DNA of 58,177 nucleotides, taken from Deltaproteobacteria bacterium. GTDB taxonomy: Bacteria; Myxococcota_A; UBA796; JAFGLY01. Both the position numbers and the translations under genes were made by a program. Numbering within the stretch: position 1 is the stretch's first letter; the number at the start of each line of letters is the position of its first letter. Under the pieces are notes generated by a model. That model saw only the letters and a program-made list of their open reading frames with translations, ran no database searches and was not told where the DNA came from. Shown piece after piece: positions 42,239 through 50,491 of this stretch. Where the stretch lies: the NCBI GenBank assembly GCA_016927815.1, contig JAFGLY010000157.1:1-58177 (forward strand), in the 5' to 3' direction.

Positions 42239-42262
42239 GGTTATGAGCGGATGCTCATAACC
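42239..42262. promoter_or_regulatory. 24-bp palindrome in the DUF134/peroxiredoxin divergent region
   Basis: Two perfect 10-bp arms, GGTTATGAGC and GCTCATAACC, flank GGAT. It lies 20 nt from the DUF134 start and 38 nt from the peroxiredoxin start. Its strength and position suggest an operator controlling both genes, with the DUF134 protein as the obvious candidate. Confidence 0.65.
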
Positions 42263-42299
42263 GCAGCGCAACGCGGCGGCGAGCCCCCCGGAGGCGAAC

Positions 42300-43007
42300 A
42301 TGCCAGAATCGCAGGAGGAAGCCGGTTGCGACCGGCCTGTCAGCGAGGTTCCCGCACCACCCCCGCCCCCGTCCTCCCCCTCACAGCCCGAGGCACCCCC
42401 CATGCAGCAGGTCAAGGTCGGCAAGCCCGCGCCGGAGTTCGCCGCTCCGGCCTACCTGAACGGCGGTTTCACCAGGGTCTCGCTCGCGGAGAAGCGCGGG
42501 CGGTGGCTGCTCGTGTGCTTCTACCCGGGGGACTTCACCTTCGTTTGACCCACCGAGGTGTCGGCGGTCGCCGACGCATTCTCCCGGCTCCAGGAACTGG
42601 AGACGGAAGTGATCGCGATCAGCGTGGACAGCCAGTTCGTCCACAAGATCTGGTTCGAGGAGGAGTTGTCCAAGATGGTCCCGGCCGTCCCGTTCCCCCT
42701 GGCCTCGGACGCGGGGGGGCACATCGGCCGGCTCTACGGCGTATACGACGAGGCTTCGGGCGTGGACATCCGGGGCCGGTTCCTCATCGATCCCGACGGC
42801 GTGGTCCAGGCCATGGAGGTCATGACTCCGCCGGTGGGCCGCAGCATGGTGGAGACCATCCGCCAGATCCAGGCCTTCCAGCACGTGCGTGCCGCCAAGG
42901 GCGCGGAGGTCTGTCCCGCGGGCTGGCGGCCCGGAAAGCCGACCCTGCGCCCCGGCCCGGACCTCGTGGGCAAGGTCTGGAAGGTCTGGAAGCCAGGCGA
43001 CGAGTAG
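42300..43007 (+). CDS. Predicted selenocysteine peroxiredoxin (AhpC/typical 2-Cys type)
   Basis: One reading frame from 42300 to 43007 is interrupted only by TGA at 42546-42548. Decoded as Sec (U83) it gives GDFTFV-U-PTEV, where all AhpC/2-Cys peroxiredoxins have the peroxidatic Cys in FTFVCPTE. The rest is full-length peroxiredoxin: SVDSQFVHKIW, PFPLASDAGG, RGRFLIDPDG and the resolving-Cys motif EVCPAGWRP (C205). A SECIS-like hairpin follows the TGA. The 235-residue protein has a Pro-rich N-terminal extension if the ATG at 42300 (GGAGG 6 nt upstream) is used; ATG 42402 would start at the domain. It should reduce peroxides in the cytoplasm. Confidence 0.88.
42546..42580 (+). promoter_or_regulatory. 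UGA(Sec) codon and bacterial SECIS-like hairpin
   Basis: After the in-frame TGA (42546-42548), 17 nt later, GTCGGC (42560-42565) pairs perfectly with GCCGAC (42570-42575) around the loop GGTC. The lower stem continues with T-G, G-C and two more pairs after one mismatch. Bacterial SECIS elements carry a small apical loop with exposed GU, about 16-22 nt after UGA; the E. coli fdhF loop is GGUCU-like. This match is strong. Confidence 0.78.
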
Positions 43008-43052: not shown

Positions 43053-43080
43053 GTATTACTGAGCGGTCCAACCGTAATAC
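43053..43080. promoter_or_regulatory. Inverted repeat upstream of the TonB receptor (NikR-like layout)
   Basis: Perfect 7-bp arms GTATTAC and GTAATAC separated by 14 nt, ending 15 nt before the TTG start. The form GTRTTAC-N14-GTAAYAC recalls the NikR operators described in deltaproteobacteria. It probably overlaps the promoter and would repress transport genes by metal. Confidence 0.5.
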
Positions 43081-43095
43081 AACGGGCCCGCTCCC

Positions 43096-45120
43096 TTGGT
43101 CGTCCCTTCGCTCCTGCCAGGCCTGCTCCTGCTCCTTCCCCCGGCTGTGCGGGGGGAGGAGCGCGACGAGACCGAGAAGGCCCCGGACGCAGAGGTCGTC
43201 GTGGAGGACCGTCGTGTATCCGAGAGCCTCGCCCAGGTGAGCCTGGACCGGGACGCCCTCGAGGCCTTCCCCGCCTCCTCTGCCGACGAGATGCTCAAGG
43301 CCATGCCGGGCCTCCACCTCTCCGCCCACGGAGGCCACGGCAAGGCGTACCAGTACTTCGTGCGCGGGTTCGACGCCGTGCACGGCTCGGACCTCGCGGT
43401 CTCGCTGGAGGGCATCCCCCTCAACGAGGTGAGCCACATCCACGGGCAGGGCTACCTGGACCTCCACTTCCTGCCCACCGTGCTGGTCCGGGGGCTGGAC
43501 CTCTGGCGGGGATCCAGCCGCCCGGAGGCGGGCGACTTCGCGCTGGCGGCCTCGGCGGAGCTCCATCTCGGCCTCGCGGATCCGGGGTTGCTCGTCCAGG
43601 TGGGCGGGGGCACCGATCGGTCGGGCCACGGCCTCGTGGCCTGGCGCCCGGCCGGAGGCGGGCCCACGGACTTCGCGGTCGCCGAGGGCGAGGCCGGTGA
43701 GGGCGTGGGGGATCGTCGTGCCTTCCGCGAGGTCCGCCTGGCCGGCGGCAAGGGCGGATGGCTGGGGCCGGCACGGGTGCGCGCCTTCGCACTGGCCAGC
43801 GACAATACGTTCGAGTCGCCCGGCGTCGTCCGCGAGGACGACGTGGGGTCGGGCGAGGTGGACTTCTACGGTGCCTACCCGGAGGCCGGGGGCGGCCGCT
43901 CGTCCCGCCTGCTGGCCGGCGTCGAGGTCGCCCGGTCCCTCGAGGCCGGTGGCTGGCAGTTCCTCGGGTGGGGTGGTCTCAAGGCCCTGGAGCTGAGGAG
44001 GAACTTCACCGGCTACGCCCAGTACGCAGATCACGGGGACGGCGTGCTGCAGGCCCAGGAGGGCGGAGCGGCGGGCCTTCGGCTGCGGGGCTGGAGGCAC
44101 CTGGAGGGGGTCGGCTCGATCCTCGAGGGAGGGGTGGACGTGAGAGGGGATCGCTTCGACCAGTGGGAGCAGGGCCTGGAGCCCGATGGCACGATCTGGG
44201 CGGAGCGCGTGGACGCCCGCGTGTCCCAGGGCTCGGCGGGGGCCTGGGCGGACCTCGGCCTCGATCCCTGGCCCTGGCTCTCCGTGGAGCCCGGGGTCCG
44301 GGCCGAGGCGCTCGCCATCCGGCTCCTGCGCCGCATCGATGACCTCGGAACGCCCGTCCTGAATCCCCGGCCTGCCCACGCCTGGGCGCCGGTGCTCTGC
44401 CCCAAAGCGCGCCTCTCGCTCTTCGGGGATCGGCCGTGGAGCGCGTTCGCCACCTGGGGGCGCGGATTCCGCTCTCCCGAAGCCCGCGGGGTGGAGGACG
44501 GGGATCGGGCGCCGGTGGCCACGGCCGATACCGCGGAGCTGGGGGTGCGCTGGGCCGCGCCCGACGCCTCGGTGACGCTGGTCGGCTTCCACACCATCGT
44601 CAGCAACGAGATCGTCTTCGATCACGCCGCCGCGCGGTTCCTCTCCTCGGGGGCCACCCGGCGGCTGGGTGGCGAGGTCGTGGCCAGCCTGGAGCCCTTC
44701 CGTTTTCTCCGCGTCGAGACGGAGGTCACCTGGGCCGACGGGCGCACCCTCGCGTCCGGCGAGGCCCTTCCCTATGCCCCCCGCTGGCTCGCCTCGACCG
44801 GCCTGTACGCCCGCCGTGCCGGGGCCGAGGGGCGGGCGACCTGTGGGCTGCGGGGCTGGTTCCTGGGGCCGCGCCCGCTGCCCGAAGGCTTCTACAGCCA
44901 CCCGGCCTTCGTGGTGGACGCCACGGGTCACGCCGAGTGGCGACGCTGGGTCCTCGACGTCGATGTGGACAACCTGCTCGGCACCCGCTGGAGGGACGGC
45001 GAGTTCGTGTACCCCTCCTGGTTCGACCGGAGCCGGCCCGAGAGCGAGCTGCCCGCCCTCCACGTCACGGCCGGGGATCCGTTCGCGATCCGGATCGCCG
45101 TCGGAAGGAGGTTCTCGTGA
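43096..45120 (+). CDS. TonB-dependent outer-membrane receptor
   Basis: The 674-residue protein has a signal peptide (PSLLPGLLLLLPPAVRG), a plug domain (about residues 35-150: VSLDRDALEAFPASSADEML, then KAMPGLHLSAHGGHGKAYQY, FVRGFDAVHGSDLAVSLEGI) and a 22-strand-type barrel ending AIRIAVGRRFS with a C-terminal Phe-Ser close. It imports a scarce ligand across the outer membrane using TonB. His-rich stretches in the plug (HIHGQGY, HGGHG) suggest a metal complex. The TTG at 43096 is the only start that keeps the signal peptide; the ribosome site is weak. The adjacent binding protein and permease suggest metal import. Confidence 0.85.
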   Translation: MVVPSLLPGLLLLLPPAVRGEERDETEKAPDAEVVVEDRRVSESLAQVSLDRDALEAFPASSADEMLKAMPGLHLSAHGGHGKAYQYFVRGFDAVHGSDLAVSLEGIPLNEVSHIHGQGYLDLHFLPTVLVRGLDLWRGSSRPEAGDFALAASAELHLGLADPGLLVQVGGGTDRSGHGLVAWRPAGGGPTDFAVAEGEAGEGVGDRRAFREVRLAGGKGGWLGPARVRAFALASDNTFESPGVVREDDVGSGEVDFYGAYPEAGGGRSSRLLAGVEVARSLEAGGWQFLGWGGLKALELRRNFTGYAQYADHGDGVLQAQEGGAAGLRLRGWRHLEGVGSILEGGVDVRGDRFDQWEQGLEPDGTIWAERVDARVSQGSAGAWADLGLDPWPWLSVEPGVRAEALAIRLLRRIDDLGTPVLNPRPAHAWAPVLCPKARLSLFGDRPWSAFATWGRGFRSPEARGVEDGDRAPVATADTAELGVRWAAPDASVTLVGFHTIVSNEIVFDHAAARFLSSGATRRLGGEVVASLEPFRFLRVETEVTWADGRTLASGEALPYAPRWLASTGLYARRAGAEGRATCGLRGWFLGPRPLPEGFYSHPAFVVDATGHAEWRRWVLDVDVDNLLGTRWRDGEFVYPSWFDRSRPESELPALHVTAGDPFAIRIAVGRRFS

Positions 45121-46778: not shown

Positions 46779-48050
46779 ATGACCCGAATCGCCCGATCCG
46801 CCTGTCTCGCGCCGCTCCTCGTCCTTGCAAGCCGAGCCGTGCAGGCCAGCGAAGCCCCGGCACAGGCGGGTGACGACGCCGACGAGAAACGGATCCGTAC
46901 GTTGGAGGAGCAGGTTCGGTCGCTCCAGGACCAACTCGCCCAGGCCGAGATGGCCCGCATCCTCGACCGCGCCGAGATCGAGGCGCTCGCGCCGGTGGCC
47001 GAGGAGCGACCCGAGGACCGGGTCTTCACGGAGAAGGGTCGCTCGCTCCAGGCGGCCAACCCGGAGATCTCGGTATCCGGAGATTTCGTCGCCTCCCTCG
47101 ACGCCGACGCGGTGGCCCTGGAGGGCAGCCCGGGGGAGAGCGGGCTCCCGCTCCGCTCGTTGGGCCTGACCTTCCAGTCCGTGCTCGATCCGTTCTCGTT
47201 CACCAAGATCGCCATCGACTTTACGCCGGATCCGGAGGAACCCGTCGCCCTCGAGGAGGCCTACATCACCTGGTCCGGCCTGGTCCCCTCCCTGTCTTTG
47301 AGTCTCGGGCGCTTCCGCCAACAGTTCGGCGTGGTCAACCGGTGGCACGAGCACGATCTCGACCAGGTCCAGTACCCGCTCCCCCTGGAGGCCCTGCTCG
47401 GTCCGGAGGGGCTCGTGGGCAACGGCCTCAATGCCCGCTGGTTCATGCCGCGGCTGTGGGCCGACGCCCAGGACCTCACGATCGAGGTCGTGGACGGCGA
47501 CAACGCGACCCTCTTCTCGGGCGAGGCGTTCTGTGTCCCCGCGGGTCTGGCCCACCTGAGGAACTACTGGGATCTGTCCGAGAGCACCTACCTCGAGCTC
47601 GGCCTGACCGGGATGGGAGGGGCCAACCGACCCCCCGAGGGGATCACGGGGGACGGCTGGGGCCGTACCTGGGTCGGTGGGGCGGATCTCATGGTGACCT
47701 GGGTGCCTCCCTCGCGGGCCCGGTACCGCTCCTTCACGTGGCGCAGCGAGGCGCTCCTCGTGGAGCGCGAGGAGGTGGACGGGAGCCGCTCTCGTGGACT
47801 GGGAGGCTGGTCCTACGTCGTGAACCAGTTCGGACCCCGCTGGTACGGGGGGGTCCGGGGTGAGGCCTTCCGGCTGGAGGGGGACGACTGGACCTGGCGC
47901 GTGGGGCCCACGGCCACCTTCTGGCAGAGTGAGTTCGTTTTCATAAGGTTAGAATATGGTTTTACAGCGAATACCCTCAACGGGGACGACCACCGCGTGC
48001 TCCTCCAGGCGAGCTGGGCGGCGGGTCCTCACAAGCACGAGAAGTACTGA
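46779..48050 (+). CDS. Outer-membrane porin-like protein with coiled-coil N terminus
   Basis: The 423-residue protein has a signal peptide (residues 1-24), an N-terminal coiled coil (EKRIRTLEEQVRSLQDQLAQ) and a beta-barrel with strands such as LGLTFQSVLDPFSFTKIAID, RFRQQFGVVNRW and VLLQASWAAG. The layout fits carboxylate/phosphate-selective and zinc-regulated porins. GGAGGG precedes the ATG. It probably forms an outer-membrane channel for the ligand handled by the next two genes. The C-terminal HKHEKY is slightly unusual for a barrel end. Confidence 0.78.
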   Translation: MTRIARSACLAPLLVLASRAVQASEAPAQAGDDADEKRIRTLEEQVRSLQDQLAQAEMARILDRAEIEALAPVAEERPEDRVFTEKGRSLQAANPEISVSGDFVASLDADAVALEGSPGESGLPLRSLGLTFQSVLDPFSFTKIAIDFTPDPEEPVALEEAYITWSGLVPSLSLSLGRFRQQFGVVNRWHEHDLDQVQYPLPLEALLGPEGLVGNGLNARWFMPRLWADAQDLTIEVVDGDNATLFSGEAFCVPAGLAHLRNYWDLSESTYLELGLTGMGGANRPPEGITGDGWGRTWVGGADLMVTWVPPSRARYRSFTWRSEALLVEREEVDGSRSRGLGGWSYVVNQFGPRWYGGVRGEAFRLEGDDWTWRVGPTATFWQSEFVFIRLEYGFTANTLNGDDHRVLLQASWAAGPHKHEKY

Positions 48051-48063
48051 CCCGGAGCCATCC

Positions 48064-49116
48064 ATGACCGCCTTTCGAGCCCCGTTTCTCAGCCTCGTCC
48101 TCCTGTTCCTGCTCCTCGCCCCGGCGTCGGCCTGGGCGAAGCTGCAGGTGGTGGTCACGTGCTCCTCCTACGAGCCCATCGTGGAATACCTGGGCGGGGA
48201 TCACGTGGAGGTGATGCACCTGGTCGAGGGCTACCAGGATCCTCACATCGTGCGTCCCAAGCCGAGTCTTGCGGTCCATCTCGCCAAGGCCGACCTGTTC
48301 GTGGAGACGGGTCTCGACCTCGAGGCGTGGGTCCCGGCCCTGGTGGACCAGGCGGGCAACCCCGACATCCGCAGCGGGCAGAAGGGATTCGTCTCCGTGA
48401 GCACGGGCGTGAAGGTCATCGAGGTCCCCAGCGCGATCAACCGCGCCGAGGGCGACGTGCACCTGTTCGGCAACCCGCACATCCACACCAGTCCGATCAA
48501 CGGCAAGATCATCGCCGAGAACATCGCCACCGGGCTCAAGCGCGTGGACCCGGCGCACGCGGCCGAGTACGATGCGAACCTCGCGCGGTTCAAGGCCGAG
48601 ATCGACACCCGCCTCTACGGCTCGGAGCTCGTTCGCATGGTCGGGTCCGCCACCCTCGACCGGCTCGCCCAGTCCGGCCGGCTGGTGGCGTTCCTCGAGA
48701 GCCAGACGTACCAGGGCCGATCCATGTCCTCCTACCTCGGCGGCTGGATGGCCCAGGCCGCCCCGCTCCGCGGTCGGAAGCTCGTGAACTTCCACAAGAA
48801 CTGGGGGTACTTCGTAGATCTCTTCGGGATCCAGGTCGTCGGGTACATGGAGCCCAAGCCGGGCCTGCCGCCCAGCCCCGGCCACATCACGAGCCTCGTG
48901 GACAGGATGCAGCACGAAGACGTCCGGGTCATCTTCGACGCCAACTACTTCGACCCTGCCAAGATGCGGCTCGTAGCTGATCGCACCGGCGCCGTGGCGG
49001 TCCAGGTGGGCCTCGCCGTCGGCGGCCAGAGCGGCATGGACGATTTCTTCGACCAGTTCGACATCTGGATTGCCACGCTGCTCGATGCGTACAAGCGCGC
49101 GGGCGTGATCTCCTGA
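48064..49116 (+). CDS. Metal ABC transporter periplasmic binding protein (ZnuA/TroA family)
   Basis: The 350-residue protein has a signal peptide (LSLVLLFLLLAPASAWA) and the cluster A-I fold: VVVTCSSYEPIVEYLGGDHV, VEGYQDPHIVRPKPSLAVHL, the metal-binding NPHIHTSPINGKIIAENIAT (His ligands), LVNFHKNWGYFVDLFGIQVV and a later VRVIFDANYF. It binds Zn or Mn, or another divalent ion, in the periplasm and passes it to the permease. There is no long His/Asp loop of the ZnuA kind, which is compatible with other metals. Confidence 0.88.
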   Translation: MTAFRAPFLSLVLLFLLLAPASAWAKLQVVVTCSSYEPIVEYLGGDHVEVMHLVEGYQDPHIVRPKPSLAVHLAKADLFVETGLDLEAWVPALVDQAGNPDIRSGQKGFVSVSTGVKVIEVPSAINRAEGDVHLFGNPHIHTSPINGKIIAENIATGLKRVDPAHAAEYDANLARFKAEIDTRLYGSELVRMVGSATLDRLAQSGRLVAFLESQTYQGRSMSSYLGGWMAQAAPLRGRKLVNFHKNWGYFVDLFGIQVVGYMEPKPGLPPSPGHITSLVDRMQHEDVRVIFDANYFDPAKMRLVADRTGAVAVQVGLAVGGQSGMDDFFDQFDIWIATLLDAYKRAGVIS

Positions 49117-49189
49117 GCCCCGCGCCCGCGGACGAAGTCCCGGGTCCCTTCCGGAACCGCCCTACGGGCCTCGCCCCCAGGATCCTCCC

Positions 49190-50491
49190 ATGCAGCAGTT
49201 CCTCTCGGTCATGCTGGCCCCGTTCGTGGAGTGCCTCCTCGTCGTCGGGTTGCACACCTACCTGGGCATCCACGTGCTCAAGCGCCGGGTCGTGTTCGTA
49301 GACCTCTCGCTCGCACAGATCGCCGCCCTGGGTACCACGATCGGCATCCTGTTCGGGATCCACGACACCGAATCGCCCGCGTCGTTCGTGATGTCGGTGG
49401 GGTTCACGCTGGTCGGCGCGGCCATCTTCACCATGACGCGGACACAGCGCGAGCGGGTGCCCCAGGAGGCCATCATCGGGCTGGTGTACGCCATCACCGC
49501 CGCGGTGGCGGTGCTCATCGTCCAGAAGACCCGAGGCATGGAGCACCTCATCGACATCATGCACGGCCGCCTCCTGTGGGTCTCCTGGGGCGAGGTGGCC
49601 GAGGCCGCGATCCTCTACACCATCCTGGGGGCGCTCCACTTCCTCTTCCGGCGGCGGTTCCTGCTCATCTCGGAGGATCCCAAGGCGGCCTTCGCCCAGC
49701 GGATTCACGTCGGGATCTGGGACTTCTTCTTCTACTTCACGTTCGGCGTGACCATCAGCGTCTCGGTCAAGGTGGCCGGCGTATTGCTCGTCTTCGTGTT
49801 CCTCATCGCTCCTGCCATCCTGGCCCTGCTCGTGTCCCACGACCTCAAGGTGCAGCTCCTCGTCGGCTGGACCGCGGGGACGCTCGTCACGGTGGTCGGA
49901 CTCTCGCTCTCCTGGGTGCTGGACCTCCCCTCGGATCCCCTCGTCATCGCGTGCTACGGGGTGGTCCTGCTCGTCGCGGCCGTCATCGCCTACGTCGTGC
50001 GGTCCCAAGCCCGATGGAGGGCCCTGGCCCGGGTGGGGATGGCCGTTGCCGCGACAGGGGCGGTCGCGGCGCTCGTGTTCGGGGGAGGTCGGTTCCTCGC
50101 GGCTTCACCCCTCGCGGGTCACGAGGAGGACCTGATGCTGGACGCGGACGCCGTGTTTGCGGCCGAGCCCGCCCCGGTGCCCGTGGACGACGCGCCCGCT
50201 CCGGCCCATCCCGACGACCCGGTCGCCTGCTTCCTCGCGGCCGCGACCCCCTTCGATCGCCTGGAGATGGCGGAGTCCCTCCTGTCCACGGATCCGGACC
50301 TCGGCGTGGACCTGCTCGTCACGATGCTCCACTGCAGCCTGACGCCCCCGCTGTGCCGGTCCACCGCGGTGGAGATCCTGGAGGAGAGGGCCGGACGGAC
50401 CTTCGGCTACGACCCCGATCGCCTTCCGGCGGAAAACCACCTCGCCTTGCGAGACATCCGTCGTTGGGCTGCGAAACGGAAGTCGCGATAG
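49190..50491 (+). CDS. Metal ABC transporter permease with long C-terminal extension
   Basis: A ZnuB/TroC/MntB-type permease: eight or so membrane helices in residues 1-310, with VFVDLSLAQIAALGTTIGIL and HDLKVQLLVGWTAGTLVTVV typical of the family. Residues 310-433 are an added soluble domain with a Pro/Ala linker and a helical end (CFLAAATPFDRLEMAESLLS), which is not usual. No ATP-binding subunit gene lies next to it; it must come from elsewhere. It is 73 nt after the binding-protein gene and 25 nt before the kinase. Confidence 0.88.
   Translation: MQQFLSVMLAPFVECLLVVGLHTYLGIHVLKRRVVFVDLSLAQIAALGTTIGILFGIHDTESPASFVMSVGFTLVGAAIFTMTRTQRERVPQEAIIGLVYAITAAVAVLIVQKTRGMEHLIDIMHGRLLWVSWGEVAEAAILYTILGALHFLFRRRFLLISEDPKAAFAQRIHVGIWDFFFYFTFGVTISVSVKVAGVLLVFVFLIAPAILALLVSHDLKVQLLVGWTAGTLVTVVGLSLSWVLDLPSDPLVIACYGVVLLVAAVIAYVVRSQARWRALARVGMAVAATGAVAALVFGGGRFLAASPLAGHEEDLMLDADAVFAAEPAPVPVDDAPAPAHPDDPVACFLAAATPFDRLEMAESLLSTDPDLGVDLLVTMLHCSLTPPLCRSTAVEILEERAGRTFGYDPDRLPAENHLALRDIRRWAAKRKSR

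Follow-up and report, generated by a model that had tools for sequence, protein, structure and literature searches.

Peroxiredoxins with selenocysteine (Sec) in a PxxxTxxU motif form a well-established family of bacterial selenoproteins (PMC13188914, PMC1794560). PrxU was originally reported from Eubacterium acidaminophilum (Sohling et al. 2001, as cited in PMC13188914), and it has been reported in Desulfotignum (PMC4046663). Sec peroxiredoxins of the Bcp/PrxQ type (COG1225) have the motif TxxU (PMC9312934). Reviews place Sec peroxiredoxins under Bcp/COG1225 or PF00578, so that less attention may have been paid to the AhpC-like branch. Here, we analysed a contig of 58,177 nucleotides from a member of the Deltaproteobacteria (assembly GCA_016927815.1, contig JAFGLY010000157.1; the whole stretch is referred to as the window), which carries a gene that almost certainly encodes a Sec-containing, AhpC-like peroxiredoxin of the PrxU family, with UGA decoded as Sec.

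The gene lies on the forward strand at 42300-43007 and extends from an ATG to a TAG (235 residues), with a single in-frame stop, the TGA at 42546-42548. This TGA takes the place of residue 83 in the context CFYPGDFTFV-U-PTEVSAVA, that is, the peroxidatic position of the PxxxTxxU motif characteristic of PrxU. In the read-through protein, the Pfam domains AhpC-TSA and Redoxin both span the TGA, and 1-cysPrx_C is found at the C-terminal end; sequence and Pfam thus agree with the initial annotation, which had described a frame open except for a TGA at the AhpC-type peroxidatic site. The NCBIfam equivalog model for PrxU (NF040737) matched residues 8-232 with 354.5 bits (cut-off, 270). Since the protein scores above this curated cut-off, it adds a member to an already catalogued family, and the novelty is modest. 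It had also been expected that an automatic pipeline would annotate the gene as two fragments, but since NCBIfam has a dedicated PrxU model, this may not happen.

Compared via the NCBIfam model, the likeness to PrxU consists of a near full-length profile match, the predicted peroxidatic Sec and a SECIS element directly downstream, whereas the window protein differs in having some 35 additional, proline-rich residues at its N terminus, which the model aligns from residue 8 onward. This extension is likely real and the start at 42300 is supported, since the ATG is preceded by GGAGG (42290-42294, forward strand), the likely ribosome-binding site, and since the profile alignment begins as early as residue 8. 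With AhpC and other typical 2-Cys peroxiredoxins (TIGR03137; PDB 1n8j, 4fh8 and 5jcg) the protein shares the fold, the active-site motif and a C-terminal VCPAxW element, but it would have Sec in place of the peroxidatic Cys, and its score with the AhpC equivalog TIGR03137 (186.3 bits) is below the cut-off of 272. The Bcp/PrxQ-type Sec peroxiredoxins are alike in the peroxidatic Sec but belong to another subfamily.

Relatives were sought in 84,980 species genomes with peptide patterns that excluded the Sec codon. The scan gave 19 loci with identities of 46-69%, from about nine phyla (among Myxococcota/Deltaproteobacteria, Thermodesulfobacteriota, Zixiibacteriota, Calditrichota, Actinomycetota, Chloroflexota, Bacillota and KSB1), and the TGA was present in 19/19. 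The window protein is 57-70% identical to 18 of them and 46% identical to the remaining one, from KSB1. Together with a second copy, carried by a different contig of the window's genome, and two further loci in the window's phylum, the relatives number 22, all with the TGA (22/22). When 379 genomes of that phylum were searched, only the genome's own two copies and these two others scored above 270 bits, again with TGA in all, and the next-best proteins, from 221 bits down, were Cys proteins. Lower-scoring AhpC matches that were flagged with one TGA turned out, where checked, to be Cys proteins with an ordinary terminal stop. When 23 Sec and 35 Cys proteins were placed in one tree, a branch supported at 96/93 had all Sec proteins on the same side, as a single clade. 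The neighbourhood of the Sec peroxiredoxin genes is mostly variable among the relatives; a rubrerythrin gene adjoins the gene at two loci (L073 and L091), and a hemerythrin is found nearby at a third (L075). Separately, we noticed that related genomes carry Bcp-like peroxiredoxin genes whose peroxidatic codon is TGA (FTPTU/YTPTU; G001:C406:5462-5890, L051; G019:C94:803-1249, L050).

A misread TGC or TGT could have produced the TGA of the window, since a single base change gives Cys and the sequence comes from a single draft metagenome-assembled genome. However, the same codon is TGA, followed by a covarying hairpin, in 21 relatives and in a second, independent copy from a different contig; a sequencing or assembly error is therefore very unlikely, even more so than the other alternatives considered below.

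This apical SECIS hairpin lies directly 3' of the UGA, as is typical of bacterial selenoprotein genes. In the window it occupies 42560-42575 (forward strand) and is built from the stem halves GTCGGC (42560-42565) and GCCGAC (42570-42575), which form six perfect pairs, and the loop GGTC (42566-42569). The stem begins 12 nt and the loop 18 nt after the TGA, exactly as the initial annotation had placed them. All 23 members of the clade have a hairpin in the identical register with compensatory changes, the loop being GGTC or AGTT only, and 92% of the stem cells are paired across the Sec relatives. Over 21 Sec genes, 116 of 126 stem pairs were formed, compared to 88.7 ± 4.3 (maximum, 100) in 500 sets in which synonymous codons were redrawn, and no other offset within the gene gave more than 95; the pairing is thus above what the codons alone produce. 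Stem covariation in the 23 genes was 0.406 versus 0.128 ± 0.029 in shuffled sets (0 of 500 reached the observed value), and sliding the register gave no more than 0.143.

If the TGA were a real stop, the gene would be a pseudogene or two fragments. The failure to find a tRNA-Sec in the assembly, described below, is in line with this reading, but the 152 codons after the TGA show no decay: GC3 is 0.93 there and 0.94 in the core before the TGA, and the nearest Sec relatives, which share 0.50-0.67 identity with the window protein before the TGA, share 0.67-0.74 after it, as much as or more than before. In addition, the TGA and the hairpin are universal in the clade. We consider a real stop very improbable. 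A genome-wide reassignment of TGA is not indicated either, since several ordinary genes in the window end in TGA.

Of the machinery for Sec synthesis and insertion, whose presence had been proposed as a check, the genome encodes selA (497 bits; cut-off, 268), selB (290 bits, or 313 with its neighbours; cut-off, 242) and selD (367 bits; cut-off, 125), all without internal stops; tRNA-Sec was not found in the assembly. The Rfam model RF01852 yielded only tRNA-Ser, tRNA-Leu and other ordinary tRNAs among the matches checked in the genome, ARAGORN and Rfam detected no tRNA-Sec around selA, selB and selD, a relaxed-threshold ARAGORN run returned only noise, and two generic patterns plus one derived from the relatives' tRNA-Sec gave nothing convincing in the genome. 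Other selenoprotein classes were not seen, and formate dehydrogenase matches were free of internal TGA. Both the missing tRNA-Sec and the lack of further selenoproteins weigh against decoding. The organism could have lost tRNA-Sec, so that decoding of a true selenoprotein gene has ceased, and the outcome of the model and pattern searches in an assembly with an estimated completeness of 97% speaks for this. On the other hand, the genome retains selA, selB, selD and both Sec genes in intact form, a search of 57 related genomes and the window's own detected tRNA-Sec in 44 of the 58, and a gene of about 97 bp is easily lost in a gap. Such a loss is unlikely in our view. Since the assembly is an incomplete draft in 216 contigs, the tRNA-Sec gene is probably missing from the assembly. 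Taken together, the clade-wide TGA, the covarying SECIS, selA/selB/selD, the second Sec copy and the match to a curated family argue for Sec at the peroxidatic position, as first proposed.

The surroundings of the gene contain two further repeats. A perfect 10-bp inverted repeat with a 4-nt spacer (42239-42262, GGTTATGAGC-GGAT-GCTCATAACC, not assigned to a strand) separates the peroxiredoxin gene from a divergently oriented DUF134 gene; its core occurs once in the genome, and it is a possible operator. Downstream, an inverted repeat GTATTAC-N14-GTAATAC (43053-43080) precedes a TonB receptor gene (43096-45120) and resembles the operator of a NikR-like metal regulator. ZnuA-like and ABC-3 metal transporter genes follow farther downstream at 47956-50491.

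An AlphaFold2 model of the window protein has the peroxiredoxin fold (pLDDT, 90.6), and its best PDB matches all fall within Prx3, Prx4 and AhpC. Cys205 (TGT, 42912-42914, forward strand) lies in EVCPAGW, which corresponds to the resolving-Cys motif VCPxxW of typical 2-Cys peroxiredoxins, and can act as the resolving Cys in the window copy, judging from this motif. The proposed designation as a Sec/Cys typical 2-Cys peroxiredoxin thus suits the window copy but does not hold as a rule for the clade: the resolving Cys is kept in only 7 of the 23 Sec members, in contrast to 29 of the 29 Cys proteins compared. Instead, a Cys ten residues N-terminal of the Sec (Cys73 in the window, codon 42516-42518, forward strand) is invariant in the Sec clade (21/21 tabulated proteins and two further ones) and absent from the 29 Cys homologs.

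From these sequence data, we infer the following route for decoding, peroxidase activity, resolution and reduction. Selenophosphate made by SelD would be used by the synthase SelA to form Sec-tRNA, and SelB with Sec-tRNA would bind the GGUC-loop hairpin just 3' of the UGA, so that Sec would be put in at residue 83 in place of termination. The Sec selenolate would attack hydroperoxides and become a selenenic acid, which in the window copy may be resolved by Cys205 of the partner subunit; the resulting selenenylsulfide would be restored by thioredoxin or a similar reductant.

The second copy (C195:11240-11980, reverse strand, L046) contains FTFV-TGA-PTE and the covarying hairpin GTCCGC-GGTC-GCGGGC at the identical distance from the TGA. 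By eye, its N terminus looks like a signal peptide, after which comes QVLGPCG, and the KSB1 relative (L091) has a matching arrangement, an apparent signal peptide and then QVLGLCG. Neither has the resolving Cys, and their scores of 219-229 bits fall below the PrxU cut-off. We predict that the second copy is exported. On its 5' side, on the same strand, are genes for a Fur-family protein and a catalase, and the catalase gene ends some 30 nt ahead of the start of the peroxiredoxin; this apparent operon, again read by eye, supports a role in peroxide defence. We tentatively suggest, as possible rather than probable, that the clade largely gave up the canonical resolving Cys, that its Sec is reduced directly by an outside thiol or via the invariant Cys ten residues before it, and that it includes an exported branch, made up of the KSB1 relative and the copy behind the Fur-family and catalase genes.

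The window gene is therefore a well-supported addition to PrxU with unusually clean comparative SECIS evidence. Least familiar is the second copy with its catalase/Fur context, which points to an exported Sec peroxidase with a link to catalase. Throughout the clade, Sec is retained without exception, most members have no resolving Cys, and another Cys never varies, which raises a testable question: how does Sec affect the second half of the peroxiredoxin cycle?
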